From Micromonospora yasonensis (GTDB lineage: Bacteria > Actinomycetota > Actinomycetes > Mycobacteriales > Micromonosporaceae), in NCBI RefSeq assembly GCF_026013475.1, contig NZ_JAPDPH010000005.1:1-64000 (forward strand): a stretch of DNA of 64,000 bases, written 5' to 3'. This document shows positions 32,046 to 51,213 of the stretch, one piece after another. The stretch's first letter is position 1; each line of letters begins with the position of its first letter. The notes beneath the pieces were generated by a model. That model had not been told where the DNA came from, made no database searches, and saw only the letters and a list, made by a program, of their open reading frames with translations. Made by a program: the position numbers and the translations under genes.

Positions 32046-32122
32046 GGGGCGGTAGCTCAGCAGGTTAGAGCAGGGGACTCATAATCCCTCGGTCGCGGGT
32101 TCGAGTCCCGCCCGCCCCACCA
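32046..32122 (+). tRNA. tRNA-Met (CAT), with encoded CCA; integration site
   Basis: The acceptor pairs GGGGCGG (32046-32052) with CCGCCCC (32112-32118), followed by A and CCA to 32122. The anticodon loop reads CTCATAA with anticodon CAT, and the T arm has GGTTCGAGTCC. It could be Met or a lysidine-modified Ile tRNA; Met is more likely from the anticodon alone. The 3' 46 bases are repeated at 51024-51069, and the integrase lies immediately downstream, so it is the attachment site of the element. Confidence 0.9.
32077..32122 (+). repeat. attL, 46-bp direct repeat in tRNA-Met
   Basis: This stretch is identical to 51024-51069. It includes the anticodon loop, T arm and acceptor 3' end with CCA, so integration leaves a complete tRNA gene here. 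Confidence 0.93.
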
Positions 32123-33715
32123 TCAAGAAGTGCGCTTGACCTGGGGTTTCTTGCCATTCTTGCGATCTTTTCCACTGGTCAGCGTCGATGGATGGGGCTG
32201 CTGTGAGCCCGACGTGAGCCCGGCGGATCGCTTGGAGCCCTGACGGGGGACGAGACGTGCGGCTGCTTCGGCCGCTTCCCGTGCCAGCTCCGGCAGGACC
32301 GAGGTGTAGGTATCGGACGTCAGAGAGATCGAGGAGTGGCCCAGCATGTCTTGGACCACCTTCATCTCGGTGCCGGCCGCGAGGGCGATGGTGGCAGCGC
32401 CGTGCCGTAGATCATGCAAGCGGATCGGCGGCAGGCCCGCCTTGCGTACCAGCCGATCGAAGTAGTCTGACAGCCAGTTGGGCTCGACCCACTCGCCGGT
32501 CGGCCGGGTGAAGAGACGCCCGCTCTCTACCCACGCCGCGTCGGCTTCCTCCCGCGCCTTCCGCTGCCGCTTGAGATGGCGCTTGGCCACCTTCAGGCTG
32601 TCGCGGTCCAGGGCGACGATGCGGTTTCCGGCATCGCTCTTCGGCGCGTTCTCCTCGATCTCCCCACTGATCTCCACGAGCTGCGTGGCGACCGTGAGGA
32701 TCTTGCCCTTGAGATCGAGGTCTTCCGGCCGCAGGCCGCACGCCTCGCCTCTGCGCAGCCCACGAAACGCGATCAGATGAAAGAGCGCATACAACTCATC
32801 GTCGGCGACAAAATCGAGGAAGACGCCTGTCTGCTCGGGAGTCCACACCATGACCGGCGACGGCCTTTCGCTGGTGGCCCGCCAACGCGCTACACGCTCG
32901 TCCGTCCACACCAATGCCTTCGGCCGACGAACGGGGTCAAGCTCAACGTGGGCCGCCGGGTTGAACGTAATCAGCTCTTGCGTGATGGCGTCGTTGAGGG
33001 CGGCCCGCAGTGTCGCCCGGATGTGCCGTCGTGTCGTCGGCCCCGCGGTACGGCGGAAGGGCGGCATTTCAGCGATGGCGGCACGCGCGGCGCGGCGGCG
33101 CTCATGCCCCTTGAGCGACTTCAGTTCGTCGATCGCGGATCGTCGTAGGGCGTTCGCTTCCTCGATCTCGATGTTCCGTTCAACGATCGCGTTGAACATC
33201 TCAGTCAGGTGCGACACGCGCAGCCGGTCAAGGCGGATGTTGCCGATGTGCGGCTTGAGGTGGAGCCGGATATCCCGGCCGTATCGGTTGATGGTGTTCC
33301 GGCGGATCTTGCGGCCAGCAAGCCAGGTGTCGAGCCATTCCCCGACGGTGATGCGGGCGGTCAACGACTGACCGCTTCGGAACTTGCGTCGCGTCTCCTC
33401 CAGGTCGGGTAGCGGCTCTCGGTTGGACGCCACGCGCTCCAGTAGGTCCCCCATGCGCTGACGGCCGTCTTCGTCATCGAGGTCGGGCAGGGTAAGCAGC
33501 GCGCGGACGGCATCCAGGTCCGTTTGAGCCTCGGTGGCCGACGTGTAGCCGGACCGGCGGAAGGTGCGACGTTCGCCCTCGGCGTTGGATGGGAGCTCCT
33601 GCCGGACGCCCCAGGTGCCGTGTCGGCGCTGGTTGAGTTTGGGGCAGGATTGCCCGTACTGCTTGCCGGTCTGCGGATCTCGGCAGGCGCAGCGACGGAA
33701 TATGGATCCTCTCAA
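32123..33715 (-). CDS. int: Tyrosine site-specific integrase of the AICE
   Basis: The 530-residue protein has an N-terminal DNA-binding part (CRCxxPxTGK-type zinc-like start CACRDPQTGKQYGQSCPKLN), an arm-binding SAM-like domain and a C-terminal tyrosine recombinase catalytic domain. Catalytic residues are visible: FRGLRRGEACGLR (Arg), LHDLRHGAATIAL (His-x-x-Arg), MLGHSSISLTSDTYTSVL (His and nucleophilic Tyr). It recombines attP with the tRNA site. The TTG start at 33715 follows AAGGAGG. The stop codon lies next to the tRNA CCA end, as usual in AICEs. The long coiled part ERRRAARAAIAEMPPFRR is an insertion common in the actinomycete versions. Confidence 0.93.
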   Translation of the reverse strand: MRGSIFRRCACRDPQTGKQYGQSCPKLNQRRHGTWGVRQELPSNAEGERRTFRRSGYTSATEAQTDLDAVRALLTLPDLDDEDGRQRMGDLLERVASNREPLPDLEETRRKFRSGQSLTARITVGEWLDTWLAGRKIRRNTINRYGRDIRLHLKPHIGNIRLDRLRVSHLTEMFNAIVERNIEIEEANALRRSAIDELKSLKGHERRRAARAAIAEMPPFRRTAGPTTRRHIRATLRAALNDAITQELITFNPAAHVELDPVRRPKALVWTDERVARWRATSERPSPVMVWTPEQTGVFLDFVADDELYALFHLIAFRGLRRGEACGLRPEDLDLKGKILTVATQLVEISGEIEENAPKSDAGNRIVALDRDSLKVAKRHLKRQRKAREEADAAWVESGRLFTRPTGEWVEPNWLSDYFDRLVRKAGLPPIRLHDLRHGAATIALAAGTEMKVVQDMLGHSSISLTSDTYTSVLPELAREAAEAAARLVPRQGSKRSAGLTSGSQQPHPSTLTSGKDRKNGKKPQVKRTS

Positions 33716-33732
33716 GGTTCCTCCTTGGGAGA

Positions 33733-33766
33733 GGGGAAGTGGTACCTATAATGGTACCACTTCCCC
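33733..33766. promoter_or_regulatory. 34-bp palindrome centred on TATAAT
   Basis: GGGGAAGTGGTACC (33733-33746) is separated by TATAAT (33747-33752) from its exact reverse complement (33753-33766). It lies between the integrase (minus) and the small plus-strand gene at 33790. A repressor bound here would cover a -10 hexamer, so it looks like a control switch of the element. Confidence 0.7.
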
Positions 33767-33789
33767 GAATGGTTGATGGAAGGTGCGCT

Positions 33790-34026
33790 ATGCGACGACG
33801 TCGGGTGGTCGAGGCTGCTCAGGGATTGCCGGCGCTTCCCGGCGAGGAGAAGCGCGACCAACAGGTCAAGATCCGGCTCTCGCGTAGCGAGGTTGAGAAG
33901 CTGGTAAGGATGCGGCCGGATCTCACCGCGGCCGGTATCGTCGCGCTGCTGGTCGACGACGTGTTGTCGGGTCGGCACGTTCCTCAATGGACAGTGAGGT
34001 CAGGTGACGGCTCGGATGCCGAGTAG
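33790..34026 (+). CDS. Small basic AICE protein of unknown function
   Basis: The 78-residue product (MRRRRVVEAAQGLPALPGE...) is basic at the start and contains KIRLSRSEVEKLVRMRPDLTAAGIVALLVDDVLSGR, a helix-turn-helix or ribbon-helix-like region. The ATG at 33790 has GGAAGG six bases before it; a GTG at 33739 upstream lies in the palindrome. The gene is next to the integrase and convergent with xis, overlapping its end by 27 bases, and the palindrome just upstream suggests it could be the repressor or be controlled by it. No closer function is recognised. Confidence 0.55.
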   Translation: MRRRRVVEAAQGLPALPGEEKRDQQVKIRLSRSEVEKLVRMRPDLTAAGIVALLVDDVLSGRHVPQWTVRSGDGSDAE

Positions 34027-34224
34027 TTCGAGGATCGCCGGTACGGGGACGACGTAGTTTCGTCCGACGCGGAGTACCCGCACGGGGAACTGTCCACGCT
34101 TGGCGAGTGCGTACGCCTTGCTCCGGCCGATACCGAGGATCGCGCCGGCTGTTTCTACGTCCGTCGTCAGGCCAAGTGCGCGGACGGCTTCGATGGTCCA
34201 TGTGCTGTCAGTCGTGGTGCTCAT
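34000..34224 (-). CDS. Excisionase-like helix-turn-helix protein (Xis)
   Basis: The 74-residue protein carries a MerR-like/excisionase HTH: ALGLTTDVETAGAILGIGRSKAYALAKRGQFPVRVLRVGRNYVVPVPAILELLGI. The RSKAYALAKRG helix and the GRNYVVP turn are typical of AICE Xis proteins that direct excision with the integrase. The ATG at 34224 follows CAGGAGG; the frame continues upstream into repSA. Its start lies 17 bases inside the end of repSA, so the two are translationally linked. It is followed by the integrase, which completes the rep-xis-int order of AICEs. Confidence 0.85.
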   Translation of the reverse strand: MSTTTDSTWTIEAVRALGLTTDVETAGAILGIGRSKAYALAKRGQFPVRVLRVGRNYVVPVPAILELLGIRAVT

Positions 34225-35641
34225 TGCTGCCTCCTGAAGGGTGGTCAACGCTCATGCGAGCGTCGTGGGCGGCTTCGCGGGCGGCTTGGAGGTCGTCTGC
34301 GATGGCGTCGGCGAACATGGCTTGTCCGGGGGTGTGGCCGTTGCCGGTGTAGGTCCAGTCCTTGTCGGTGATGGTGTCGATGTCGTCGGGTGTTTCCTCC
34401 TGGTCGTTGTGGTCGCGATGGTGCTGCTCACGCGCGGCGCGAAGTGCGGTGTAGGTGGTGGAGTAGGCGCGGCTTTTGGACGCGATGTGGCCCCGGTAGC
34501 CGAGTTGGTGAGCCCAGCGCCGCAGGTTCAGCGCCTTGTATTCGGGCCGGCCGCCGAGGGTCCAGCAGGTGCGGATGAGGGTGCGGGCGTGTTCGGTGAC
34601 GGGGAGGACGGAGATGGTGATGGCGTCGTGGATGGGCCAGTCAACGGTGATGCCGGCGACATCAGGCTTGGTGACGTACTTGGCGATGTACGAGGCCACG
34701 GCCCGCTCCGTCAGGTCATCGTCGCCGCCGTTGCCGGGCAGGATGGGCCGGATGTCGAGCTGAGCGCCGAACCGCAGGATCGTGTCCAGGCCGGGCACGG
34801 CGAGGTGGACGCGGCGGGTGGCGGTGCGGATGGTGTGGGTCAGGAGTGCGAGGGTGGCCCAGGCGGGGGGTGGGGTGTCGGGGGTGGGGCCGTCGAAGCG
34901 CATGACGGCGTGGAAGTGGATCGACCCGCGCCGCTGGTACTCGGCAACCTTGGCGTAGGCGACGCGGACCGCCTTGCGGGCAGCAGTACGGGAGAGGCCC
35001 CGACCGGTGGCGATGGACTCGCACAGGTTGCGGTGTAGGCGTTGCCACAGGTCGCGGGTGTGGGCGTTCCACACGACGGCGGCCGGGTAGTCGTAGCAGT
35101 CGGGGCAGATCGGGGAGCCGGTGAGCGGGTCGCCGGTCGGGTGCCGGTCGGGGCAGGCCAGGGGCCGGCCGTGCGGGCAGACCAGGCCGCGCCCGCGTCG
35201 CGGAAGCCGGCAGGGTTCGTCGGTGGTGTGTCGGTGGACGGGGCCGAAGCTGGGCGCGGTGAAGGTGACGAACACGCGCGGGTGCGCCCTCACGGTGTCG
35301 GGGACGCCTTTGCCGCCGGCGAGCCCGGAGACGACGAGTTGGTAGGTGTCGCCCTGGTGGAGTCGGGCGCACGGTTCGCAGCGGGATTGCCGCCGGTTGC
35401 CGCAGGCGATGGTGAGCCGCCCGTGCGGCTGGTCCGCGCTGGTGAAGGCGTGCATGAGGCGGCCGGTAGCGGCGTCCACGGTCAGCGTGTGGCCGACGAG
35501 GTGGACGGGGTGTTGGCAGCCGCCGATGTGGCGGATGCGCGCCAGCCACGCCCGGAAGTCGGGGTGCGTGGCGGTGGTCAGGATTTCGCGGTCGGTGAAG
35601 GACAGGCCAGAGTCAGGCCCGCCAGGGGCGGGGGTGGTCAT
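34208..35641 (-). CDS. RepSA-type rolling-circle replication initiator
   Basis: The 477-residue protein resembles RepSA of pSAM2-type elements. It has several Cys/His pairs in the N-terminal half (CGNRRQSRCEPC near 80-91, CPHG..CPD near 155-165, CPDC at 179-182), the HUH motif HFHAV at about 242-246 in GSIHFHAVMRFD, and the catalytic Tyr region SYIAKYVTK at about 317-325. It would nick the element's double-strand origin to start rolling-circle replication after excision. The ATG start at 35641 overlaps the stop of a tiny upstream ORF. The C-terminal part is hydrophilic and continues over the Xis start. Confidence 0.9.
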   Translation of the reverse strand: MTTPAPGGPDSGLSFTDREILTTATHPDFRAWLARIRHIGGCQHPVHLVGHTLTVDAATGRLMHAFTSADQPHGRLTIACGNRRQSRCEPCARLHQGDTYQLVVSGLAGGKGVPDTVRAHPRVFVTFTAPSFGPVHRHTTDEPCRLPRRGRGLVCPHGRPLACPDRHPTGDPLTGSPICPDCYDYPAAVVWNAHTRDLWQRLHRNLCESIATGRGLSRTAARKAVRVAYAKVAEYQRRGSIHFHAVMRFDGPTPDTPPPAWATLALLTHTIRTATRRVHLAVPGLDTILRFGAQLDIRPILPGNGGDDDLTERAVASYIAKYVTKPDVAGITVDWPIHDAITISVLPVTEHARTLIRTCWTLGGRPEYKALNLRRWAHQLGYRGHIASKSRAYSTTYTALRAAREQHHRDHNDQEETPDDIDTITDKDWTYTGNGHTPGQAMFADAIADDLQAAREAAHDARMSVDHPSGGSNEHHD

Positions 35642-35754: not shown

Positions 35755-35784
35755 GACTGCTCCCTTCTGAGCTGGGCCGGCGGA

Positions 35785-37305
35785 TCAGGCCGGTGGGGTG
35801 AGGCCGGGCAGGACCGGCGCCAGGTGTGCCGTCGAGTTGATGACGGCGGTCAGGGCGTCCGGTGGTAGGTACACCGACCGGGCGCGTATCCACCCGGCGT
35901 GGTCAGCGGTGGTGACCGCGATGCCCTTCACGCTCGGGTCGATCTGCTGGGCTGCCTCGACGGCGTCGGGGTAGAGGTCGCCTAGGGTCATGTCGACGGT
36001 TTCCTCGTCGTTGACCCGCAGGCAGATCCGCCCGGCGAGCTGGGCGCGCAGCGCCGTCACGCCCGGCCCGAGGTCGGAGCCGACCCGTTGACCGGCCACG
36101 ATCAGATGCACGCCCAACGCTGCGCCGAGCTGCGCCAACCGCAGCAGGTTCGTCGTGGCCCGCAGCGCTTCGTCCTTGTCGGCCCGCGACGCAACGAGGT
36201 ACAGCTCCGCCAACTCGTCGACCACGACCACGACCGGCACCGGCCGCAGATGGGCGGGGAGTTGCCAGATGTTGCGTGCCCCGAGCTGGCGGCACAGCCG
36301 CATCCGCCGCTGCGTCTCGGCCACGAGTTCGGCCAGAACGTCAGCGGCTTCCGCCCGGTCGGTCGCGAGAGCCGACAGGCGGGGCGCGTGCGGGGCCAAC
36401 TCCATGCCACCCTTGCAGTCGATCCCGACCAACGCGACCGGACGGGCCGCCCACCTCGCCACCGCCGCATTGATGAGGGTGGACTTGCCCGATTGGGTGG
36501 CCCCGGTGACCAGCCAGTGCGGGAAGGTGGCAAGGTCGATCACCCAACTCTGCCCGTCCTCCCGGTGCCCCACCTCGGCCACCAGATCGGCGGGCACCGC
36601 CACCGACCCACCACCGGTGTCGGCTGCCGCGTAGGTCGCCGCCGAGCCAGTGGAGGGCACCGCGGCCGGTTCCGTTGGCGGGCCGGTGGCCCAGGCGGCA
36701 GCTTCGGCGATGCGATCCGTGGTGAGCGGGTCGGCGGTGAGGACGGTCAACCGGACCCGGCCGCGTTGCGCCGTGTTGACGCGCACGGCGTGGACCCGCC
36801 AGGCGTGCGCCATGGCTTCGGCCGCGTTGACGAACGGGTCGGGGATCTGCCCAGGGTGCAGCAGGATCACCGCTGTCGCCCCAAACTTCCGGGGGCGGAT
36901 GCGGGTCAGCAGCGGCAACACCGGCATGATCGGCCGGCCCTTGACCAGCAGTGGACCAAGTTGCCCGGTGGTGGGCCGGTCAGTGCCGGTCAGATCCGCG
37001 TTCAAGCACAGGTACCGCCACGAGTGCCGCATGCGCAGCCGCAGCAGCGGGAACCCGAACAGGCACCAGTGCACGCGGGGTGCCTTCCATCGCAGCAGCC
37101 GCGACACCACGACCAGCAGCACGACGACGGCGGCCACGACCGCGCCGACGCGGCCAATGGTGGGTAGCCAGCTCTGTAGCCGTTCGAGGGTGACCCCCGG
37201 GAAACGCGGCGCGAAGCCGGGCATCCCGGGGGTCATCGACGGTGACGGCGCAGGCGTCGGCGGCAAGACCGATGCCGGCGGCATCACTGCTTCGGCGGCG
37301 ATCAT
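35785..37305 (-). CDS. FtsK/SpoIIIE-type DNA translocase, TraB-like conjugation protein
   Basis: The 506-residue protein has a hydrophobic segment near residues 52-70 (RVGAVVAAVVVLLVVVSRLL) and an FtsK ATPase domain with Walker A GATQSGKS (268-275), VGIDCKGGMEL, Walker B VVVVVDE (358-364) and the sensor region LIVAGQRVGSD. It is the AICE conjugation motor that moves double-stranded DNA between mycelial cells. The C-terminal part is shorter than in plasmid TraB and may hold the recognition domain. GTG start is not needed: ATG at 37305 overlaps the stop of the upstream gene by four bases. A 143-base gap and a possible short ORF separate it from repSA. Confidence 0.9.
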   Translation of the reverse strand: MIAAEAVMPPASVLPPTPAPSPSMTPGMPGFAPRFPGVTLERLQSWLPTIGRVGAVVAAVVVLLVVVSRLLRWKAPRVHWCLFGFPLLRLRMRHSWRYLCLNADLTGTDRPTTGQLGPLLVKGRPIMPVLPLLTRIRPRKFGATAVILLHPGQIPDPFVNAAEAMAHAWRVHAVRVNTAQRGRVRLTVLTADPLTTDRIAEAAAWATGPPTEPAAVPSTGSAATYAAADTGGGSVAVPADLVAEVGHREDGQSWVIDLATFPHWLVTGATQSGKSTLINAAVARWAARPVALVGIDCKGGMELAPHAPRLSALATDRAEAADVLAELVAETQRRMRLCRQLGARNIWQLPAHLRPVPVVVVVDELAELYLVASRADKDEALRATTNLLRLAQLGAALGVHLIVAGQRVGSDLGPGVTALRAQLAGRICLRVNDEETVDMTLGDLYPDAVEAAQQIDPSVKGIAVTTADHAGWIRARSVYLPPDALTAVINSTAHLAPVLPGLTPPA

Positions 37306-40127: not shown

Positions 40128-40136
40128 ACGCCAAGT

Positions 40137-40180
40137 CCGGCCGCCTCGTTAGACGCGCACCGCATCCACGAGGCGGCCGG
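40137..40180. terminator. Bidirectional terminator between convergent AICE genes
   Basis: CCGGCCGCCTCGT (40137-40149) pairs perfectly with ACGAGGCGGCCGG (40168-40180), an 18-base loop between. Stops of both neighbouring genes lie within 10 bases of the stem. Confidence 0.75.
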
Positions 40181-40187
40181 ACAGCTG

Positions 40188-40838: not shown

Positions 40839-40935
40839 CCACGGCGCTGAACGCAAGCGCCGACGCGTCGACCGCCGAGCACAGACGCTCCGGCGACCGG
40901 CAGGCGAATTGCGGTACATAAAACACAGCTTGGCA

Positions 40936-40995
40936 TAGTGCCAGTAGCGCTAGCGACAGTTGGCCTCGTGCCAGTTGGGCTAATGCCAGTAGCTG
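40936..40995. repeat. Four tandem 15-bp iterons
   Basis: Units 40936-40950, 40951-40965, 40966-40980 and 40981-40995 share the pattern TAGTGCCAGTWGSGC, with CAGT falling exactly 15 bases apart (40942, 40957, 40972, 40987). They lie between two divergent genes. They could be operators of the divergent promoter or an origin-type iteron. Confidence 0.7.
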
Positions 40996-41063
40996 CCGGC
41001 GGACAGACATCCACGATCCGGCTACAGCCCTCGCTCCGCTGACCGCACACGATAGTTCATCAC

Positions 41064-42559: not shown

Positions 42560-42615
42560 GCGCATCGCAAGGTCCAACCAATCGGCTGGGCCCTGCAGAT
42601 TGTTGCGACTATGCG

Positions 42616-42975
42616 CTAGTATCCGGTGTTCACCCAGGCAGAACAAGGGTCGGGCTGGAAAGAGATGTCTTCGCACACCCGAATGCGATAGATTTTAGAA
42701 CCGCCCGTGTAGTAGGGGCTCGTAGCGCACTGAGTGTAATTCGCGTCGTGGCCAGTTTCACCGGAACTTCCATTGCGACGAGTGAATTGGCCATAAATCT
42801 TGCGACTAGTGTTGACCGTTTTGCATGCTTGTTCGTCGTTACCCGAGTTGAAATCCGATGCATAGCCGATGGAATTCGTTGCGGTGGCCGCATATGCGGG
42901 CGCCGGGGCAATTAGGACGGCACCTGCCAGTAGCACGAACCCGGCCGTTAGCTTCAGACCGATCCCCGTCTTCAT
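42616..42975 (-). CDS. Small secreted protein with four cysteines
   Basis: The 119-residue protein has a signal (KLTAGFVLLAGAVLIAPAPAYAATA) with cleavage expected near AYA-A. The mature part of about 90 residues is rich in Ser, Asn, Gly and Tyr and has four cysteines (DEQACK, YTQCA, RVCED, DPCSAW), enough for two disulfides. The ATG at 42975 follows GGGAGG. It lies in a segment of lower GC than the host. No family is recognised. It is on the opposite strand to murF and near the TlpA gene. Confidence 0.7.
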   Translation of the reverse strand: MKTGIGLKLTAGFVLLAGAVLIAPAPAYAATATNSIGYASDFNSGNDEQACKTVNTSRKIYGQFTRRNGSSGETGHDANYTQCATSPYYTGGSKIYRIRVCEDISFQPDPCSAWVNTGY

Positions 42976-43613
42976 GCACAACCTCCCACTAAAATTGAGG
43001 AACTGAAATGTGTCACTGCGCGGCAGCGGTGTCAATAGCGGTTGGCCAGTGGCTAGGGTCAGGTCCTTGATGTGTAGAGCCGCGACACGACTGTGGCTTC
43101 GCACCCGGGTTTCGCAATCTGGCCAACTACAGGACCAGATTCCTGCCCGAGAACTGCGAATTCCGCAACCACATCGTCGCTTAAGCAAGGGACGCCGCAT
43201 GCCAATTGCCGCCCATCACGATGCGTCGGCCGGCTTAGTCGTCGAACGCTTGCCGCTACGGCTACCGTGCGCGGCCTTAACGTAGGTGCTCTTCGTAGCC
43301 GAGACGCTGATTGCCTTTTCATTGATCTCGGTCTCTCAAAAGCGTCTGGAGCGACAGCTTGGGTAGCCCTTTCTGGGCCGTTCAGCGACGGTTTCTGTCC
43401 CATGCCGCCAAACCCGCTCGGGCTATGGCTTTCGCAGCGGCCAACGGAGCGGGCGGCGTTTCGCTAGTGGTCTGGTCCTTTGGCACGCGGTCATCACGAC
43501 GCCTTACCCGCCAGGCGAAACGCCCAGGCCCGGTCCGGCAACACCCGTGGATCCACAGAACCTGTAGGATAACAATCAATCAGTCTGTACAAGACGACTC
43601 GAATGGTTGGTCA
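42976..43613. other. Gene-free stretch before the TlpA gene
   Basis: About 640 bases with no credible ORF. Several overlapping frames are open on both strands but lack ribosome binding sites and have mixed codon use. A minus-strand reading of 34 residues (43235-43336 area) ending RSTTKPADAS looks like the remnant of a protein end. GC content is lower than in the host. The last 60 bases supply the upstream region of the TlpA gene. Confidence 0.4.
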
Positions 43614-44156
43614 ATGAAGCGGCGATGTTTTCTGGCGCTGACGGCTGTGCTTGCAGGCGTGACGGGTTGCGGCAATGCTCCGCAGGCATCTGATGAACTT
43701 ACTCTACGGCTAATTCAACCGAAGGATCGGGTTCCGGCGCCAGAGTTCACAGGACGATTGTTGTCTAGTCCTCAAGTTTTCAATCCGTTTGCATCGCAAT
43801 CACCCGCGACGGTTATCAACTTTTGGGCATCCTGGTGCGCTCCGTGCCGCCTTGAAGCGCCCCAGTTGCAGCTAACTTATGAAGAGTATGCCAAAGAGGG
43901 CGTAAGCTTCGTCGGCGTCAACTCCAATGACAGTGAGACGAAGGCTCTATCATTTGTAGAAGCATTCCACTTGACTTACCCCAATATCTTCGATCCTCCA
44001 GGCAGGGTTGCTGCGAAGTATCGCGCCATCGTCTCAAATCCACAGCCAGGGACAGTAGTCGTGGACCGCCGTGGGCGGGTGTCCGCCCGTATTGTCGGCG
44101 GAGTGGCGAGGGACGATTTGCGGCATGTTCTTAGTCAGACTCTCTCGGAGAAGTAG
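43614..44156 (+). CDS. TlpA/ResA-type thioredoxin-like lipoprotein
   Basis: The 180-residue protein has a short signal ending AGVTGC (lipid Cys19) and a TlpA-like thioredoxin domain with VINFWASWCAPCRLEAPQLQL, where Cys75 and Cys78 are the redox pair, followed by VSFVGVNSNDSETKALSFVEAFHLTYPNIFDP, GTVVVDRRGRVSARIVG and the conserved cis-Pro in NPQPGT. It reduces or exchanges disulfides outside the membrane, usually in cytochrome c maturation. The ATG at 43614 gives the signal; GC is low (about 50%), suggesting transfer. A CcdA-type partner lies at 49422 in the same element. Confidence 0.87.
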   Translation: MKRRCFLALTAVLAGVTGCGNAPQASDELTLRLIQPKDRVPAPEFTGRLLSSPQVFNPFASQSPATVINFWASWCAPCRLEAPQLQLTYEEYAKEGVSFVGVNSNDSETKALSFVEAFHLTYPNIFDPPGRVAAKYRAIVSNPQPGTVVVDRRGRVSARIVGGVARDDLRHVLSQTLSEK

Positions 44157-44279
44157 GGCCTAACGCGCCCTCAAGTTATGCAGGCAAGCAGCACGATTCG
44201 TAAGGTGACGCCCTTGCCCTACGGAACCTGCTTTCGAGCGGTTGCAGGTGGCTTAGGCGCTAGAAAGTTGGAGTTGAGG

Positions 44280-44774
44280 GTGATCAGAGAGGACTACGCC
44301 ATTGCGTTGGGCTTGCTTGCAGTGAAGCCTATGCACGGGTACGACTTACGTAATGCTTTCCAAGCCCTGTTTCCCGATGATAAACCACCTGCTTACGGAC
44401 AACTTTATAGAATCATAGCTAGATTGGCCAAAATGAAAGCTCTTGCGAGCCAAACCATTGGTCGAGATCAAGGGCCAGATAGGCTCCAATACAAAGCCAC
44501 TGAGGAGGGAAGAAGTATGCTAGATAAGTGGCTGAACATGCCTTTTGTGCCGCAAGATGACATGGCAAGCCTGCCGAAACGAATAGTTCTGGGGCTTCAC
44601 TGCGGTAAGCCAACTTCTTGGGCTCTCGGCCGGATTGACGAAGCTGAGGAAATTGTTCTGCAGAGGTCAAATGAACTGAAGGCTGACCTTGGGAGCAGCT
44701 TTAGGGTGTTCCAGAACCGCGCTCTGGTTCAGTGGCTGGAGTTTTCTCGATTGCATCTCGACGGATCGTCGTAA
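44280..44774 (+). CDS. PadR family transcriptional regulator
   Basis: The 164-residue protein opens IREDYAIALGLLAVKPMHGYDLRNAFQALFPDDKPPAYGQLYRIIARLAKMKAL, the winged-helix signature of PadR regulators (GxYDLxxxF ... GQLYRIIxRLxxxGLV). The C-terminal helices make the dimer. GTG at 44280 is chosen because the HTH then starts at the N-terminus. It follows the TlpA gene by 123 bases, with which it may form an operon, and low GC marks it as foreign. Effector and target are unknown. Confidence 0.82.
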   Translation: MIREDYAIALGLLAVKPMHGYDLRNAFQALFPDDKPPAYGQLYRIIARLAKMKALASQTIGRDQGPDRLQYKATEEGRSMLDKWLNMPFVPQDDMASLPKRIVLGLHCGKPTSWALGRIDEAEEIVLQRSNELKADLGSSFRVFQNRALVQWLEFSRLHLDGSS

Positions 44775-44826
44775 TTCCCATACACGGCCATAACGCAGTC
44801 CCCCCCAAGCCTGTAAGGCTTCTAGC

Positions 44827-44858
44827 CTCGGCCCTTCGTTAACTCGGCCCTTCGTTAA
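44827..44858. repeat. Perfect 16-bp tandem duplication
   Basis: CTCGGCCCTTCGTTAA occurs twice without a gap (44827-44842 and 44843-44858), just upstream of the IS1380 remnant. It may mark an old transposition scar. The rest of the intergenic region 44775-44962 has no gene. Confidence 0.7.
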
Positions 44859-44962
44859 GGGCTGTCCACGGGCTGGGCTGGAAACGCAGAAGTGCCTTCT
44901 GTTCAGGGAAAATAGGGCTTGTCGAGAGTCCTGATCATCCCGTCACGGAAGGCACTTGCTGG

Positions 44963-45935
44963 GTGAAGGCTACCGCAACACGTCCGAAGATCGTGGTGAC
45001 CGGCGACCGGCGAGGCGTGGTCGGTCACGCTGGTGCCCGCCTGCTCGCCGATGTGGCGGATGCGACCGGGTTGACCAGCGCGTTCGGCCTGGCTTGTGCT
45101 GGTTTGCGGCAGCGGCAGCGGCAGCGGCAGGGCGGTCACGATCCGGGTCGCGTTGCGGTCGATCTGGCGGTGATGCTCGCCGACGGCGGTGAAGCGATCG
45201 CCGATCTGGCGGCGCTACGGGATCAGGCCGGCCTGTTCGCGCCGGTCGCCTCCGATCCGACGGCGTAGCGGCTGCTGTCACAACTGGACGAGACGCTGCT
45301 GGCCGAACTGCGGGCCGCGCGGGCTCAGGCGTGGCAGGTGGCCTGGGCCCAGCACGCCGAGACCCGCGACCGAGCCTTCCCGCAGGTCAGCGTGGCCGGG
45401 CAGACGGTCGCAGGCCTGGTCGTGGACATGGACGCCTCGATCGTGCTCTGCCATTCCGAGAAGGAGTCAGCGACGCGGACCTGGAAGAAGACATTCATGT
45501 ATCACCCGTTGTTCTGCTTCCTGGACAACACCGGCGAAGCATTATCCGGCCTGCTGCGTGAGGGCAGGGCCGGGTCCAACACCACCGCCGATCACATCAC
45601 CGTCCTTGATCAGGCCCTGGCGCAGATCCCGGATGAGCACCGGCACGGCACCCCGATCCTGATCCGCAGTGATTCAGCCGGTTCCAGTCACGGCTTCCTC
45701 GCCCACATACGCGGCCTGCGCGAGCAGCACCTGGACATCCGGTTCTCCGTCGGCGCCGCGATCACCGAACCCGTCCGACAGGCCATCACGGCCGCCACCG
45801 GCTGGGTTCCCGCCCTCGACACCGATTGGGATCTGCGCGAGCATGCCGAGATCTGCGAGATCACCGGCCTACTCGACGCTGCCGGCTGGCCCGACGGGAC
45901 CCAGTTCATCGTCCGCCGCGAACGTCCGCACACCG
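44963..45935 (+). pseudogene. IS1380-type transposase, amber-interrupted and 3'-truncated
   Basis: The GTG frame from 44963 encodes an IS1380-like DDE transposase: GDRRGVVGHAGARLLADVADATGLTSAFG, VAVDLAVMLADGGEAIADLAALRDQ, then a TAG at 45266-45268 (PTA-stop-RLLSQL, probably once a Trp codon TGG) and, in the same frame, VVDMDASIVLCHSEKESA, NTTADHITVLDQALAQIPDEH, ILIRSDSAGSSHGF (catalytic Asp). Family similarity ends near RRERPH (about 45931); the rest of a full transposase is missing and the sequence runs in frame into a STAS gene. It is not functional as read. Confidence 0.87.
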
Positions 45936-46120
45936 CCGCCGGACACGCGCCCGGGAGGTCAGCGGCGCGATCCCGGGAGGCGGCGAGGCCACCTGCCCGG
46001 ATGACGAGGGACGGGACACACCCGCCATCGCAGACGACATCAACCAGTGCCGCCGCCCCCTCGCCCCGCTGGCCGGGGAGCGTGGGGGCGCAGAGCCGTT
46101 GGACGGGGTACGCTGCGTCG

Positions 46121-46444
46121 ATGCGCGCGCCGCTCTGGCAGCACACCGTCGACCGGCTGGGGGACACCAGCACGATCATGCTGTCCGGAGAGCTCGATCT
46201 ATCCGCCGACCGGGAGGTGCGGGAGGCGATCATCGGCGAGCTTCAGCGACCCGGCCTCACCCGCCTCCTCATCGACATGCAAGCGGTCACCTTCATCGAC
46301 TCCACCGTGACCGCCACGCTCGTCTACACCTCCAACGCCGCCCACAAGTCAGACCGCCAATTCACCATCTCGCCTAGCCAACGCGTGCGCCGAATCGTGG
46401 AACTCACCGGGCTGTCGTATCTGCTCGACCCAGCGGACCGATAG
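46121..46444 (+). CDS. STAS-domain anti-sigma factor antagonist-like protein
   Basis: The 107-residue protein is a single STAS domain: MLSGELDLSADREVREAIIGELQ, LLIDMQAVTFIDSTVTATLVYTSNAA, and SPSQRVRRIVELTGLSYLL. The Ser in FIDSTVT is at the phosphorylation site of SpoIIAA-like antagonists, here DST rather than DSS. The ATG at 46121 is assumed; the frame is open back to the transposase remnant at 45269, so a longer fusion could be translated. There is no strong ribosome binding site. No anti-sigma kinase gene is nearby. Confidence 0.72.
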   Translation: MRAPLWQHTVDRLGDTSTIMLSGELDLSADREVREAIIGELQRPGLTRLLIDMQAVTFIDSTVTATLVYTSNAAHKSDRQFTISPSQRVRRIVELTGLSYLLDPADR

Positions 46445-46596
46445 TTCCTCGGGCTACGCCGGCCACCCCGCCCCTGCCCGTTCACGGCCGACACATTGCA
46501 GTGAGTAATGACATCGCTGGCATAGATGGCCATATCTCATGGGTTCCGAAGATGCCGGCCGGCGGCCAGACGCCTAGCCGGCAAACCCCAAGGGAA

Positions 46597-46872
46597 TCAA
46601 TTTGCGTGACCCGAAGCGCGGGATTGACTCCGGCTCGGCCATCCCAGGAAACGATCGAACAGTTCCGCGTCGCTGCACGCGTCGTCCGGCCGCAGCTTGC
46701 CCAGGTCGTCCGCCGCCTCGCCGAGCAGACCGGCCAGATAGACGAACAGGCACACTCGATCCCGCTCGTACTCGGCCAGTAGCGCCAACTTGGCGTCTCC
46801 GCACGGCCACGGGTGGCCGCAACCCCTGCACAGCCAGATCGGCCGGATCGGCGTGTGCGGACGGCGAGTCAC
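46597..46872 (-). CDS. Small zinc-ribbon-like protein, last of a four-gene overlap operon
   Basis: The 91-residue product (MTRRPHTPIRPIWLCRGCGHPWPCGDAKLALLAEYERDRVCLFVYLAGLLGEAADDLG...) has Cys pairs CRGCGHPWPCG at the start and a helical rest ending AELFDRFLGWPSR. The GTG at 46872 overlaps the stop of the XRE gene (GTGA). A start at 46881 is also possible. Short proteins of this form accompany XRE genes in actinomycetes; the function is unknown. Confidence 0.68.
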   Translation of the reverse strand: MTRRPHTPIRPIWLCRGCGHPWPCGDAKLALLAEYERDRVCLFVYLAGLLGEAADDLGKLRPDDACSDAELFDRFLGWPSRSQSRASGHAN

Positions 46873-47270
46873 GATGACCACCCCGACTCCGCCAACAGCC
46901 GGTGCAGCTCACGGCACACGCACCCCGGGGCCGGCTGGGCGAGGAGCTGCCGAATCTGCGCCTCTGTCTCCTGCTCTCGAAGCCGGCGCGCCAGGGCGTC
47001 CGTGCGGCCCCACGCCGCCAGTAGCGCGCCCTCCAGCCCCAACACCACGTCACAGGCTTTCCAGAACTCACGAGGCGCGCACTGGCGTCCCACCTCCACA
47101 TTGGCGATGGTGCTGCGTGACCAACGCGCCAGCACCGCCAACCGATCCTGCGTTACCCGCGCCTCCGCAAGGACACGCCCCAACGTCCGGCGAGACTCCG
47201 CCACCGCATCGGGCGTCACCACATTCAACCGGCTGGGAGCCGCGAGCGCGGCCAAGACGGAAGCTGTCAC
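46869..47270 (-). CDS. XRE family helix-turn-helix regulator
   Basis: The 133-residue protein has a Cro/C1-type HTH from about residue 25: AESRRTLGRVLAEARVTQDRLAVLARWSRSTIANVEVGRQ. The second half is helical, with a Cys pair GCVCREL near the end. The GTG at 47270 overlaps the previous stop, and the stop overlaps the following GTG, so it is coupled on both sides. It probably regulates the small operon or an unlinked target such as the murF region. It lies inside the mobile element. Confidence 0.8.
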   Translation of the reverse strand: MTASVLAALAAPSRLNVVTPDAVAESRRTLGRVLAEARVTQDRLAVLARWSRSTIANVEVGRQCAPREFWKACDVVLGLEGALLAAWGRTDALARRLREQETEAQIRQLLAQPAPGCVCRELHRLLAESGWSS

Positions 47271-47530
47271 CGCCGGCCACCGCCCCCATCAGACCGACCA
47301 GCCCGCGGCCCACCCGGCGCGCCCTCCGCAGCGGTGTGCGTCGGCATCAACCCGGCTATCCGTCCGTTCTTGATTCTCCAAGCCCTCAGGGTCTCGCCAG
47401 CGCGCACCAGCCGGGGACAACTACCGTCGGCCTGGCAGCGGGAGCACACGTTTCGGTGATGGAAGTCCACGACGAAGCCTGCCATCATCACGGCGAACGG
47501 TGGTGCAGGCTGCGGCGTTTCCACGCTCAC
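47267..47530 (-). CDS. Small CxxC protein coupled to the XRE gene
   Basis: The 87-residue product begins MSVETPQPAPPFAVMMAGFVVDFHHRNVCSRCQADGSCPRLVRAGETLRAWR. The HxxNVCSRC..GSC segment may bind a metal. The GTG at 47530 overlaps the stop of the preceding gene by four bases and its stop overlaps the XRE start. The C-terminal 30 residues are Gly/Arg-rich and may be disordered. Function is unknown. Confidence 0.62.
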   Translation of the reverse strand: MSVETPQPAPPFAVMMAGFVVDFHHRNVCSRCQADGSCPRLVRAGETLRAWRIKNGRIAGLMPTHTAAEGAPGGPRAGRSDGGGGRR

Positions 47531-47748
47531 AGCCGATCCCCACGTGGCCGTCGGGCCGCGTGATCGGCGCGCCACGTGCCACCCCGCGTCAGCAGGGGCC
47601 GATCCTGGGCCAGTGGCATCGTCGGGGCGTTCCACGAGGGCGTTGGACGGAGATGGCCGCCGTAGGCACCGCCACGGTGGGCATACGCCGAGCGATCTAC
47701 CACGTCCACCGGCTCCCGCTCGCGCTGGAACCACTTCCATCGGGGCAT
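47527..47748 (-). CDS. Small protein, first of the four-gene overlap operon
   Basis: The 73-residue product (MPRWKWFQREREPVDVVDRSAYAHRGGAYGGHLRPTPSWNAPTMPLAQDRPLLTRGG...) has a very strong ribosome binding site, GGAGGTGA, five bases before the ATG at 47748. It is rich in Arg, Gly and Pro. The pattern SAYxHRGGxYGxHxPTPSWNAPT is seen in short actinomycete proteins near XRE genes. Its stop overlaps the next GTG (GTGA). Function is unknown. Confidence 0.65.
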   Translation of the reverse strand: MPRWKWFQREREPVDVVDRSAYAHRGGAYGGHLRPTPSWNAPTMPLAQDRPLLTRGGTWRADHAARRPRGDRL

Positions 47749-47931
47749 CCAAGTCACCTCCGGCCTCCGTCTACCAGGCTCGCTGCCAGCTACGATCCGG
47801 CGGCATCGATGCGCCGTGCAACACTCCAGACGAGACGATCGCGCAGAGACGCGCCTAGCGGGCGATGATGCAAGAGCCGTCTCACGGCAAGTCGAATGAC
47901 GCGTCAGGATGAGACAGGGAGGATGGTGCCG

Positions 47932-48798
47932 ATGAGCGAAGCGGGATCGACGGTGCCGAGGCGGGAGCTTGGCCGGCTGCTTAGGCAGGCCCGGGAGCAA
48001 GCCGGCATCGGCCTGGAAGCTGCGGCCTCTGATCTTGAATGGTCGCGGGCCAAGATGTACCGCATCGAGTCGGGGCAGACTCCCGTACGCGCGCTCGACG
48101 TTGACCAGATGTGCCGCCTGTACGGGGCCTCACCGGAGATGACCGAAGTTCTGATCAGTCTGGCCAAGGAGTCCAAGAGCAAGGGCTGGTATCACGCCTA
48201 CGGGGAGATCATCCCTCGATGGTTTGAGCTGTACGTAGGGCTTGAGTCTGCGGCCAGCCGGATACGGACCTACGAACATGCTCTGGTGCCCGGCCTGTTG
48301 CAGACACCCAACTACGCCGCTGAGGTAGTACGGACTCGACCAGGTGTCACCGACGAAGAGGTTGCCAAGCTCGTTGGACTCCGCACGGAGCGTCAACGTC
48401 TCCTAGTCCGAAAGAGGCCAGCAGCTCCCTCGTTGGAAGTGATCATTGAGGAGGCGCTACTACACGCGAACGTGCCGGGCATGGCCGGGCAGATAGATCG
48501 ACTCATGGAAGCCGGCGAGGCACCCAACGTGTCCGTCAGGCTCCTACCACTGAACAAGAGACTGAGCCAGGTAGCCATTGCCGGTAGCTTCGTCATTCTA
48601 GATTTCCCGACGAATGGTGCTCGGTCTGCCGAGCCGACAACCGTCTATAACGAGGGGCTCTCGGGAGCGCTCTACATCGATCGCCTTGAAGAGGTCAGAG
48701 CGTATGCCGAGGTTTGGAACACCCTCACGTCTCAGGCATTGAGCGTGGAGGAGTCCCACAAAATAATGCAAGGAATCAAGGAGAGGTATCATGACTAA
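47932..48798 (+). CDS. Scr1-like XRE regulator with DUF5753
   Basis: The 288-residue protein has an N-terminal XRE HTH (ELGRLLRQAREQAGIGLEAAASDLEWSRAKMYRIESGQTPV) and the DUF5753 domain (YVGLESAASRIRTYEHALVPGLLQTPNYAAEVVRTR, RTERQRLLVRKRPAAPSLEVIIEEALLHANV, VYNEGLSGALYIDRLEEVRAYAEVWNTL). This is the Scr1/antitoxin-like regulator family that pairs with DUF397 proteins, including those around WhiJ in development. The ATG at 47932 follows GGGAGG. It overlaps the DUF397 start by eight bases. Confidence 0.9.
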   Translation: MSEAGSTVPRRELGRLLRQAREQAGIGLEAAASDLEWSRAKMYRIESGQTPVRALDVDQMCRLYGASPEMTEVLISLAKESKSKGWYHAYGEIIPRWFELYVGLESAASRIRTYEHALVPGLLQTPNYAAEVVRTRPGVTDEEVAKLVGLRTERQRLLVRKRPAAPSLEVIIEEALLHANVPGMAGQIDRLMEAGEAPNVSVRLLPLNKRLSQVAIAGSFVILDFPTNGARSAEPTTVYNEGLSGALYIDRLEEVRAYAEVWNTLTSQALSVEESHKIMQGIKERYHD

Positions 48799-48982
48799 TC
48801 TGACCGGCGCAGTCTGGCGGAAGAGCAGCCGCAGCAGCTCTCAGGGCAACTGCGTGGAGGTAGCCGCGAACCTCCCAGGCCTCGTTGCCGTCCGGGACAG
48901 CAAAGACCAGCACGGGCCGGCGCTGGTCTTCACCCCCGCTGGCTGGGAAGCCTTCCTTCGCTTCACCAAGACGGCAAAGTAG
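48791..48982 (+). CDS. DUF397 domain-containing protein
   Basis: The 63-residue protein carries the DUF397 signature WRKSSRSSSQGNCVEVAANLPGLVAVRDSKDQHGPALVFTPAGWEAFL. DUF397 proteins are small partners of XRE/DUF5753 regulators and may act as toxin-like or signal proteins. The overlap with the preceding stop (ATGACTAA) shows coupling. Copies such as this are common in actinomycetes, including on mobile elements. Confidence 0.9.
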   Translation: MTNLTGAVWRKSSRSSSQGNCVEVAANLPGLVAVRDSKDQHGPALVFTPAGWEAFLRFTKTAK

Positions 48983-49114
48983 CCCTCTCGGTGCCGCGCC
49001 AACCGCCGAGTGCCCACCTCAAGCAGGGAACGTATGGCCAGGGCGCAGGTGCGGTGAGCCCCCGTGAGGCCAGACGCCCACGCATTGGCCGGCACGGCGA
49101 TCACTGACGGGCAG

Positions 49115-49155
49115 CCATAGGGGTGGTCTACCTGCACAGAGGGCCACCCCTATGG
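49115..49155 (+). repeat. Covarying hairpin element, copy A, in the gene-free stretch 48983-49421
   Basis: CCATAGGGGTGG (49115-49126) pairs perfectly with CCACCCCTATGG (49144-49155). The loop contains ACCTGCACAGA. A second copy at 50950-50989 has the same loop word and flanking bases. In the rest of 48983-49421 I see nothing recognisable. It may be a terminator for the DUF397 gene or a structured element. Confidence 0.75.
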
Positions 49156-49421
49156 ACTAGCAGTTACCCTCAATCACGACCAGGATTCAACTAGTGGACC
49201 GCTCCCACCATGAGATCGTTTTTCGATTCCAGCCTACCGGGCCCGGCCGATCTCAACCTGGGCGCGCTACCCCACAGACAACCCGGAGTGGCCCGGGGTG
49301 GTGGGCATCTTCGGCCACGCAAGGTGAGATTGGCGGAATACCCTAGACGCGGGGTCTACCCAACCGGCAGCTACCATGCCTTGCAGGCCCAGGCCGATGA
49401 GCGGGCACAAACAGCGCGACC

Positions 49422-50180
49422 GTGAGGACCAAGGTGGGCGAGAAATTCGGCGAAATAGCCCTATCGGGAAGTTTTCCCCTCGCGATCCTCGTATCGCTTC
49501 TCGCGGGCCTGGCGAGCTTCCTCTCGCCTTGCGTACTGCCACTGATTCCAGGTTATGTGGCATACGTCACCGGGCTTACCGGACGAGACCTAGAGCAACA
49601 GCGCCGGGGGCGGGTGGTCGCAGGTGCGCTGCTCTTCATTGCAGGCTTTTCACTAGTTTTTGTTACCACGCTGGTAATGGGCTCTCAATTAGGGAGAGCG
49701 CTATTTGCGCATCAGCGAATGATAGAGGTCGTCGGTGGCTTGCTCGTCGCAGGACTCGGCGCAATTTACATGGGCCTCATTCCAAAGCTCCAAACCGAAT
49801 GGCGAATTAGGAAACTTCCCCCCGTAGGTGTGTGGTCGGCACCGCTCGTCGGCATTGTCTTTGCACTTTCGTGGACTCCTTGCGTCGGGCCGACACTTGG
49901 GGCGGTGATGCAACTTGCAATCGTTAACCACACCGAGCAGCGTGCGCTCATGCTCGCCGCCGCCTACTGCGCAGGAATCGGCGTCCCCTTCCTCATCTTC
50001 GCCATCTACTTCCGTCGCCTCCTGGGAGTTTTCCGATTCATCCGTCGACACAATGGAGTTGTCTCCAAAGTTGGCGGATTGCTGCTGATTGCCGTAGGGA
50101 TAGCGTTGGCGACTGGCGCATGGAACTCGTTCACCATCTGGCTGAGAGCAGCTTTTTCGACTTTTGACGTGCTCGTTTAA
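49422..50180 (+). CDS. CcdA-type cytochrome c biogenesis/thiol transporter
   Basis: The 252-residue membrane protein has six hydrophobic segments and the two CcdA cysteines: Cys37 in ASFLSPCVLPLIPGYVAYVTGL and Cys154 in LSWTPCVGPTLGAV. It passes reducing equivalents from the cytoplasm across the membrane to a thioredoxin-like protein, here probably the TlpA lipoprotein at 43614 in the same element. The GTG at 49422 is chosen; the ribosome binding site is weak. GC is lower than in the host. No cytochrome c or ResB gene is near, which suggests a role other than cytochrome c maturation. Confidence 0.88.
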   Translation: MRTKVGEKFGEIALSGSFPLAILVSLLAGLASFLSPCVLPLIPGYVAYVTGLTGRDLEQQRRGRVVAGALLFIAGFSLVFVTTLVMGSQLGRALFAHQRMIEVVGGLLVAGLGAIYMGLIPKLQTEWRIRKLPPVGVWSAPLVGIVFALSWTPCVGPTLGAVMQLAIVNHTEQRALMLAAAYCAGIGVPFLIFAIYFRRLLGVFRFIRRHNGVVSKVGGLLLIAVGIALATGAWNSFTIWLRAAFSTFDVLV

Positions 50181-50429
50181 TAAGGTGTCGCATCAGCCCA
50201 CAGAGGGCCACCAAAGTGGCTGCTCCCAAGCATTTGTGCCACGAGCGTTACAACTGGACATAAATGCGGCACATCCCGTTATGCGATGCAGAGCTCAATT
50301 GATCTTGCGCGAGGCGTCGAAATACCACCCCTCCGCCTCTAGGCACTCAAGCGAACTCACAGGGGTTGCGGAGCGCAACTTCCGCATCTACTGTCGGTGA
50401 CGCATCGACACCCATCCACGGGAGGACTC

Positions 50430-50915
50430 ATGGGCAAGTTCGATCTTCGCCGGCTTCGACTGGCCACCCTGGCAGCGCTGTCCGCAGCAGCGATCACGGT
50501 CACCGCAGCACCGGTAGCGGCGCAGGCCTCGCCAGGTCCGCTCGCGGGCGGAGGATGCCTCACCGGCGGGTCACCCTGGAACGTGGGCGTCTGCTCCTCC
50601 GACAACGGCGTGACTGTGTTCGGGGACCTCTACATCAACAGCCGTGGCAGCCTCGGCAGCAGTTGCTACACCTACTACAGGCTGCTCGACACCACGACTG
50701 GCAACTGGGTCGCAAACAGTGGGAACCAGGACTCTACCTCGGCCACCACCCGAACATCTCCGCCCCGAAGCTATCGGGCCACCGTTACCGCAACTACGGA
50801 TACGTCTACGTCGACGGCGTCAATGTCTTCAATGGTGTCAGCAAGGACACCTTCTGACGGCAGCCAGCTCGGCACATGCGCCGAATGTGAGCCCGATGTG
50901 AGCCCGGACGGTTGA
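50430..50915 (+). CDS. Small secreted protein, probably frameshifted near the C-terminus
   Basis: The ATG at 50430 (after GGGAGGAC) gives a signal LRLATLAALSAAAITVTAAPVAAQA and a mature part with GGGCLTGGSPWNVGVCSSDNGVTVFGDLYINSRGSLGSSCYTYYRLLDTTTGNWV. After about 50720 this frame becomes Ser/Thr-rich nonsense (161 residues to 50915). The +2 frame instead reads GLYLGHHPNISAPKLSGHRYRNYGYVYVDGVNVFNGVSKDTF and stops at 50857, a far more protein-like end. A single indel near 50725-50735 would join them, so this gene is probably broken or the sequence has an error. Confidence 0.65.
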   Translation: MGKFDLRRLRLATLAALSAAAITVTAAPVAAQASPGPLAGGGCLTGGSPWNVGVCSSDNGVTVFGDLYINSRGSLGSSCYTYYRLLDTTTGNWVANSGNQDSTSATTRTSPPRSYRATVTATTDTSTSTASMSSMVSARTPSDGSQLGTCAECEPDVSPDG

Positions 50916-50949
50916 GAACCAGCCGACATGTAAACCCCCTGAGAAGCAG

Positions 50950-50989
50950 CCGTAGGGGTGCCGACCTGCACAGATAGGCACCCCTACGG
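50950..50989 (+). repeat. Covarying hairpin element, copy B
   Basis: CCGTAGGGGTGCC (50950-50962) pairs perfectly with GGCACCCCTACGG (50977-50989). The loop holds ACCTGCACAGA. Relative to copy A the third pair A-T has become G-C on both sides of the stem. It lies 34 bases after the secreted protein and 34 bases before attR. Confidence 0.75.
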
Positions 50990-51023
50990 ACTCGCGATCA
51001 TGCCCAAAGATTAACGGGATTCA

Positions 51024-51069
51024 ACTCATAATCCCTCGGTCGCGGGTTCGAGTCCCGCCCGCCCCACCA
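51024..51069 (+). repeat. attR, 46-bp direct repeat of the tRNA-Met 3' end
   Basis: Identical to 32077-32122 and not part of a complete tRNA, since the 5' half is missing. It is the right boundary of the element. Confidence 0.93.
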
Positions 51070-51213
51070 CGGAAGCGCCCTGGTCAGCCATGCTGGCGGC
51101 GACCCGGTCGAACGGCATCAAGATCCGGACCGATGCCCTCAGTCCGGACTGGCCCCGGCCCCGGCCTCAGAGATCCGCTAGCTTGCACCGAGCGCGTCCC
51201 TGATACTCACGGC

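Follow-up and report, generated by a model that had tools for sequence, protein, structure and literature searches.

What purpose is served by a segment of DNA that keeps its loop constant while the two sides of its stem change together? The question is raised by two related hairpins in the 64,000-nucleotide stretch of Micromonospora yasonensis analysed here (contig NZ_JAPDPH010000005.1, positions 1 to 64,000, called the window below). An earlier note, made from the letters of the window, had read the preserved pairing and the shared loop as signs of selection on an RNA or cruciform structure, and had held a terminator and a recombination or regulatory site to be equally open.

Two related hairpins in the window

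Both hairpins are present in the sequence where they had been placed, and copy 1 is accompanied by two further features:

49054..49076, + strand: decayed arm repeats before copy 1
49115..49155, + strand: hairpin copy 1 (12-bp stem, 17-nt loop), putative decayed attR of a second related element
49183..49192, + strand: GGATTCAACT, core-edge remnant after copy 1, tRNA part lost
50950..50989, + strand: hairpin copy 2, with a 13-bp stem and a 14-nt loop (GACCTGCACAGATA), within the P' arm of the live attR

Positions 49115-49126 pair with 49144-49155 over 12 bp in copy 1, and 50950-50962 with 50977-50989 over 13 bp in copy 2. Folded as the + strand, the two copies had z-scores of −4.8 and −6.4, respectively, and none of 200 shuffles was equally stable. 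The inner stems GGTGG..CCACC and GGTGCC..GGCACC, which the note had set against each other as compensating changes, do both pair, but that alignment hides a difference of 1 nt in length. Neither hairpin matched a curated RNA family of Rfam, even at E values up to 5.

The loop 11-mer occurs exactly three times in the 7.7-Mb genome. At the third occurrence, on contig C75, neither inspection by eye nor folding gave a hairpin that encloses the motif in its loop. This occurrence lies within CCCTGACCTGCACAGAA, after a purD-like gene (about 1495-1515 of locus L001), a sequence close to the Streptomyces form of the loop motif but without hairpin or core, and is either a chance match or a relic.

A repeat search extended the likeness of the two copies to GGATTCAACT, an extension that the note had missed. 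In copy 2, a 46-bp exact repeat that matches the 3' part of a tRNA-Met gene has GGATTCAACT as its edge.

The hairpins lie near the right end of an integrative element

This repeat bounds an actinomycete integrative and conjugative element (AICE) of about 19 kb, at 32,123-51,069 of the window, which is inserted in the tRNA-Met gene and has the intact tRNA at its left end. Its features are as follows:

32046..32122, + strand: tRNA-Met (CAT), target gene of the element
32077..32122, + strand: attL, left-hand copy of the 46-bp exact repeat, within the intact tRNA gene
32123..33715, − strand: tyrosine integrase (Int), 530 aa, stop codon abutting the tRNA gene (PF00589, 2.3e-21)
32136..32144, + strand: loop motif on the P side, TTGACCTGG, at 59 bp from the core start
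32203..32222, + strand: P-side arm repeats GTGAGCCCG-N2-GTGAGCCCG, within the 3' end of int and 126 bp away from the core start
33739..34026, + strand: small protein beside int (true start possibly 33790)
34208..35641, − strand: RepSA replication initiator, pSAM2 type (PF20199, 1.5e-145)
35785..37305, − strand: FtsK/SpoIIIE-type protein, TraB-like by position and family (PF01580, 1.3e-27)
50887..50910, + strand: P'-side arm repeats GTGAGCCCG-N2-GTGAGCCCGGACG, putative arm-type integrase sites
51016..51035, + strand: core at attR, a GGGATT..AATCCC inverted repeat around the anticodon-loop sequence
51024..51069, + strand: attR, right copy of the 46-bp exact repeat (3' part of tRNA-Met)

The integrase, the RepSA-type initiator, the FtsK/TraB-type translocator and the insertion into a tRNA gene with a direct repeat are those of an AICE of pSAM2 type, and the element resembles in its Int, initiator, translocator and tRNA target the pSAM2-type AICEs and the Frankia AICEs of PMC3218068. 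The main text of PMC3218068 mentions no hairpin, palindrome or inverted repeat. The predicted attP has a core with short inverted repeats and paired GTGAGCCCG arm repeats on both sides, and the crossover point probably lies within the GGGATT..AATCCC core.

Copy 1 is found 1.8 kb inside this element, with decayed arm repeats and no tRNA part, and appears to be what is left of the right end of another, related element. A CcdA/DsbD-like gene (49422-50180) is carried as cargo between the relic and the live right ends, and an 82% relative of this gene is found near the hairpin end of L149. The chromosomal DNA that follows the tRNA part (51069-51110, and also at L230) carries CCCTGGTCAG, the reverse of a variant of the loop motif, which may be a trace left by earlier elements or a tRNA terminator.

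At the other end, a relative of the small protein adjoins the integrase in six other stretches compared; the protein itself had no match in Pfam or PHROGs. Between int and its gene there is a perfect 14-bp inverted repeat, GGGGAAGTGGTACC, with the 6-bp spacer TATAAT (33733-33766), which resembles an operator overlying a −10 box and may serve the small protein.

Further copies in Micromonospora and its relatives

The test that the note had set for its reading was the existence of further copies with the pairing kept. The exact hairpin pattern had no match in the contigs of the genome, and the exact loop-to-GGACT pattern, sought in 61 genomes of the genus, was found only in the own genome, so that a covariance model was needed. 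Model R1, built from the two window copies, gave 30 matches in 18 of 160 genomes of the genus, or 25 distinct places when matches on both strands are merged (23 distinct sequences, both window copies and two exact duplicates being included among the places); the stems covary, and the test was passed. Paired arm repeats (GTGAGCCCG) lie upstream at all 25 places, some of them decayed, and a core in a tRNA anticodon loop is present at 21, the places without a core being copy 1 (L006), L011, L013 and L033; a recount by a single script gave the same two numbers.

Model R2, run over 300 genomes of the family, matched in 36 of them. Among the loci listed, it brought nine further att-linked copies, from Micromonospora and other genera (L116, L128-L133, L135 and L140), and the remainder repeat known places, once ten loci without att context that look like other hairpins (L134, L136-L139, L141-L145) had been removed before the counts. 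A hairpin copy is also carried by Salinispora mooreana. As a separate observation, a different conserved hairpin, CTAGGGCT(G/C)TCTAGC..GCTAGA(C/G)AGCCCTAG, recurs in the family (L134, L136, L137, L139, L141, L143 and L144), and a third, CCGCAGGGGTGTCTCGA..TCGAGACACCCCTGCGG, was seen at L138, in a genome (G315) with 11 model matches on several contigs.

We also searched from the integrase side. At 80 integrase loci R1 gave one weak match and R2 five, three of these in L042; the right ends mostly lie beyond the 10-kb flank. The att repeats of relatives passed at 4 of the 80 loci, and L042, L045 and L083 were used, the repeat of L102 being set aside as a long duplication. In a second set 3 of 20 pairs passed, and the L219 pair was rejected as an overlap artefact. 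A blastn search of plasmids with the right end as query matched the tRNA part only.

When 32 element stretches, many of them decayed, cut or carrying other genes, were compared by tblastn with the proteins of the window, the integrase matched in 11 and RepSA in 5. In all 11 stretches with an Int match, int is at one end, reading outward, and the hairpin is at the other. L161 and the Salinispora locus L042 have a full-length Int and the hairpin without a RepSA or TraB match, and no RepSA or TraB Pfam family was found in the ORFs scanned inside them (5 and 1 ORFs, respectively); the hairpin therefore goes with Int rather than with the replication and transfer genes.

Pairing and loop are both conserved

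The preserved pairing and conserved loop that had been described from two copies hold in the wider family. In the main alignment of 34 hairpins (33 distinct, 15 pairs; copy 1 was omitted for its extra base), 89.7% of the cells are paired when read as the + strand, and 59 cells in nine pairs are changed on both sides, a cell count that none of 500 shuffles reached and a pair count that 2 of 500 reached. The corresponding values for the − strand are 92.5%, and 61 two-sided cells in ten pairs (0 of 500 shuffles). Kinship inflates these two-sided counts; it is retained in the control in which the partner was slid, where pairing was 33-49%. In the first set (21 hairpins, 18 pairs), 86.5% and 89.7% of the cells were paired and 20 cells in five pairs were two-sided, the number of such pairs not being above that of the shuffles. 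The stems are kept across genera, and outer stem pairs are lost in three Micromonospora copies, L016, L017 and L020.

Conservation of the loop is similar to that of the inner stem, with G27 invariant and C20, G22, A24 and A28 nearly so. A mismatch beside the loop is itself kept, as C.A in 25 of 33 hairpins and as G.A in 7. Within the stem, A.C mismatches outnumber G.T (25 against 11 cells, p = 0.029; 8:3 and 12:5 when counted as events, p = 0.23 and 0.14; 20:8 when pooled, p = 0.036), and since kinship is ignored in all of these counts the lean is a hint only. An A.C mismatch corresponds to a G.U pair in the int-sense strand.

A T-tract, defined as at least 5 T in any 6 nucleotides within 14 nt after the stem, was found in none of 35 copies on either strand. 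Fold z-scores below −2 were obtained for 74% (+ strand) and 86% (− strand) of the Micromonosporaceae segments (n = 35), for 26% and 27% of the Streptomyces arms described below (n = 70), and for 4% and 5% of the controls (n = 114). Few Streptomyces arms fold well, which means that not all members need the stem.

Arm repeats, loop and core keep constant distances

The distance from the start of the second arm repeat to the loop centre downstream is 71.5 bp in 28 of 35 att-linked copies, and that from the loop centre to the start of the core is 54.5 bp in 29 of 35, with the loop about midway between the P' arm repeats and the core. The arm distance is 69.5 in L011 and L022, 72.5 in L013, 71.0 in copy 1, and 82.5 in L027 and L030, where it is measured to the first of the two repeats; L132 has no arm repeat within 3 mismatches. 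The core is at 55.5 in L022 and is lost in copy 1, L011, L013, L033 and L239. Despite these constant distances the spacer sequences diverge widely among the copies.

We repeated the measurement without using the hairpin as bait, with the pair of arm repeats alone as query. In the 160 genomes of the genus this pattern gave 18 matches in 18 genomes, while the reversed-pattern control gave 0 throughout, and in 12 of the 18 the longest stem was centred exactly 82.5 from the start of the pattern. Two others, L235 and L238, are known copies with interrupted stems, and L227, L231, L233 and L241 have neither core nor intact hairpin.

The loop motif holds its position with or without a hairpin

In Streptomyces and Lentzea the loop motif (approximately TGACCTG) holds its position whether or not a hairpin is present. 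Lentzea alba (Int identity 59%) shares the layout, the stem around CCAGGATCAA being a different one. In Streptomyces orinoci and three other Streptomyces-group loci the motif is found at 70-71.5 and 54.5-55, and no palindrome is centred on it. A sequence-only model of the 149-bp arm matched in 116 of 295 Streptomyces-group genomes at E values up to 0.001. Among 70 of its best loci, the core was found by script in 67 (all except L244, L278 and L293), and the start of the motif precedes the core by 62 bp in 62 of these, by 63 bp in 4 and by 74 bp in 1; a model built from such arms favours equal spacing, so that this result weighs less than the bait-free test in Micromonospora. The anticodons at the core of the 67 arms are CGT (31), CCT (16), TTT (12), TGT (5) and CAT (3). 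Motif-centred hairpins recur at Arg(CCT) cores (for example L272, L276, L294, L297 and L310), in some Lys(TTT) loci (L292, L306) a further hairpin, of about 13-14 bp, separates the motif from the core, and most Thr-core loci have no clear hairpin.

More distant integrases, of the phage TurkishDelight (46.0% identity) and the prophage-like plasmid NZ_CP108372.1 (44.6%), are accompanied by paired repeats on both sides of a tRNA-like core. The arm model gave only a chance-level match in these two, elsewhere in the sequence. By eye, a motif is seen further from the core by about 11 bp in NZ_CP108372.1 and about 18 bp in TurkishDelight, and no strong hairpin surrounds it in either.

The motif is also present on the P side of the core

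We then looked at the other side of the core in 84 loci, 56 of which had a core recognised by the script. All 12 Micromonosporaceae rows (11 elements) have TGACCTG at +59/60 with no more than one mismatch (9 exact), and the exact motif is present at +70/71, about one helical turn further, in 38 of the 44 other loci. Recognisable P-side arm repeats were found in 22 of the 56 loci: at +126 in ten rows (nine elements, L038 and L149 being identical), at 124 in two loci with Lys(CTT) cores, and at 135-148 in ten. On either side of the core, the arm repeats in Micromonospora are 126-137 bp away from its start. A reverse motif is present at 53 in 22 of the 56 loci, and the motif there also belongs to a terminator-like palindrome, so that for those loci an accessory site is less securely inferred.

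Proposed place of the hairpin in the attachment site

From these comparisons we place the hairpin, with a probability of about 0.7, in the middle of the attP P' arm of a tyrosine integrase family that serves AICEs and related elements; this supports the suggestion of a recombination site made in the earlier note. As read from the sequences, the arm repeats, the core in the anticodon loop, the exact loop position and the presence of the motif on both sides are established. The attP of phage lambda consists of P and P' arms, with an IHF site (H') and a core, and is used by a heterobivalent tyrosine integrase. The site described here is like it in its arm repeats, its core and a putative accessory site between arm and core; it differs in that the arm repeats are paired and near-symmetric (126/137 bp), that the core lies in a tRNA anticodon loop, and that the putative accessory motif sits in the loop of a covarying hairpin. 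By analogy, the N-terminal domain of the integrase would bind the arm repeats and its catalytic domain the core, and the loop motif would be the site where a DNA-bending or accessory protein folds each arm onto the core, for which a host factor, a directionality factor or the integrase itself are candidates. The loop motif would presumably take the place that H' holds in lambda. Such a putative accessory site of the recombination complex would suit the constant distance of the motif from the core on both sides, roughly halfway to the arm repeats.

The covarying stem would give the segment a second, structural role, separate from that of the loop, either as a hairpin of the int message transcribed from the excised circle or as an extruded DNA hairpin aiding the bend. 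Since int reads outward at the far end of the element, its transcript would run in the circle through the core into the hairpin; this order is deduced from the two att ends, and tandem elements would also join int and hairpin. As to RNA or DNA, the sequence offers only a weak hint, the lean of the stem mismatches towards the int-sense strand.

Possible roles of the stem

The first candidate is a 3' end of the int mRNA that depends on the state of the element: the int transcript of the circle would run into the hairpin, which would end the message or alter its stability, while loop and spacing would be set independently by the recombination complex. We consider this a real possibility, if short of an even chance. 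The stop codon of int abuts the tRNA gene in the window, which leaves no room for a terminator before the core; the stems vary with pairing kept; mismatches lean to A.C, that is to G.U in the int-sense strand (25:11 cells, p = 0.029, kinship ignored); and at L292 and L306 a hairpin stands between motif and core, as if pairing counted for more than position. Against it, the T-tract is missing in all 35 copies, neither the mismatch cells nor the events are independent of one another, a conserved loop is more than a terminator would require, a clear hairpin is missing from many Streptomyces members, and some relatives already have a terminator-like palindrome between int and core. In phage lambda, the sib/tI retroregulator is a hairpin beyond the core, joined to int only when the phage is unintegrated. 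The hairpin studied here would likewise lie beyond the core as seen from int and be joined to it only in the unintegrated form, but it stands within the P' arm and has a conserved loop. PMC2951348 mentions sib as a site distal to int. In ICEKp1, according to PMC13023037, the joining of the element ends changes int transcription, promoters being switched and a terminator in the 5' UTR attenuating; int transcription would be tied to joined ends in both cases, at a possible 3' end in ours.

A DNA cruciform, extruded from the palindrome in the supercoiled circle and bending the arm sites to the core in place of IHF, would explain the pairing kept in changing stems and the exact position about midway between arm and core. 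However, the motif is retained in several Streptomyces members that have no palindrome centred on it, and an excess of A.C over G.T, weak as the lean is, would not be expected from DNA; we regard the cruciform as unlikely.

Two-sided changes could also arise without selection, as template switching between the arms of a quasi-palindrome is a mutational mechanism that carries a change in one arm over into its partner. The mismatch beside the loop has nevertheless been kept (C.A in 25 of 33, G.A in 7), as have the stems across genera, and this explanation appears improbable. An ordinary intrinsic terminator, which the note had suggested from the position of the hairpins after genes and which the strong GC-rich stem would suit, is very improbable: no T-tract follows the stem in 35 copies, the loop is conserved, the distance to the core is fixed, and all 25 R1 places are behind arm repeats, none following an ordinary gene away from an att site. 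Although the element encodes RepSA and a TraB-like protein, an origin of replication or transfer (dso, sso or clt) of a rolling-circle/TraB system is hardly credible for a hairpin tied to the core by exact spacing and present at L161 and L042 with Int but without RepSA or TraB matches.

Returning to the P'-arm reading, we tentatively see in the 48-bp segment two layers, the loop being a mid-arm site and the stem a state-dependent RNA or DNA hairpin that would couple integrase expression or the shape of the intasome to excision; such hairpins may have been built around or beside the motif more than once in these widespread actinobacterial elements. This combined picture is somewhat doubtful in its entirety. 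The open-access literature, searched by title and abstract, gave nothing on such a hairpin or arm layout, and an older footprint of the pSAM2, SLP1 or VWB attP may exist; open-access work on phage VWB and on retroregulation gave nothing on such a hairpin either.

The comparison yields a testable attachment-site map for a common actinomycete integrase family, with arms, motif, core and spacings given to the base pair. Such a map would allow attP sites to be cut to size for integration vectors, and makes element ends and relics findable without the integrase gene. It also raises the question of why a segment of a recombination site keeps base pairing within one strand.

Other observations in the window

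Inside the element, a Mur ligase-like gene (41064-42559) is split into two ORFs, the first with the catalytic and middle domains and the second with the C domain, and is probably a broken gene. The ORF at 45338-46444 joins a fragment of a DDE transposase to a STAS domain and is probably an insertion remnant fused in frame. At 19296-19391, ARAGORN calls a 96-base tRNA-Pro that the Rfam tRNA model does not recognise, and this call is probably false.
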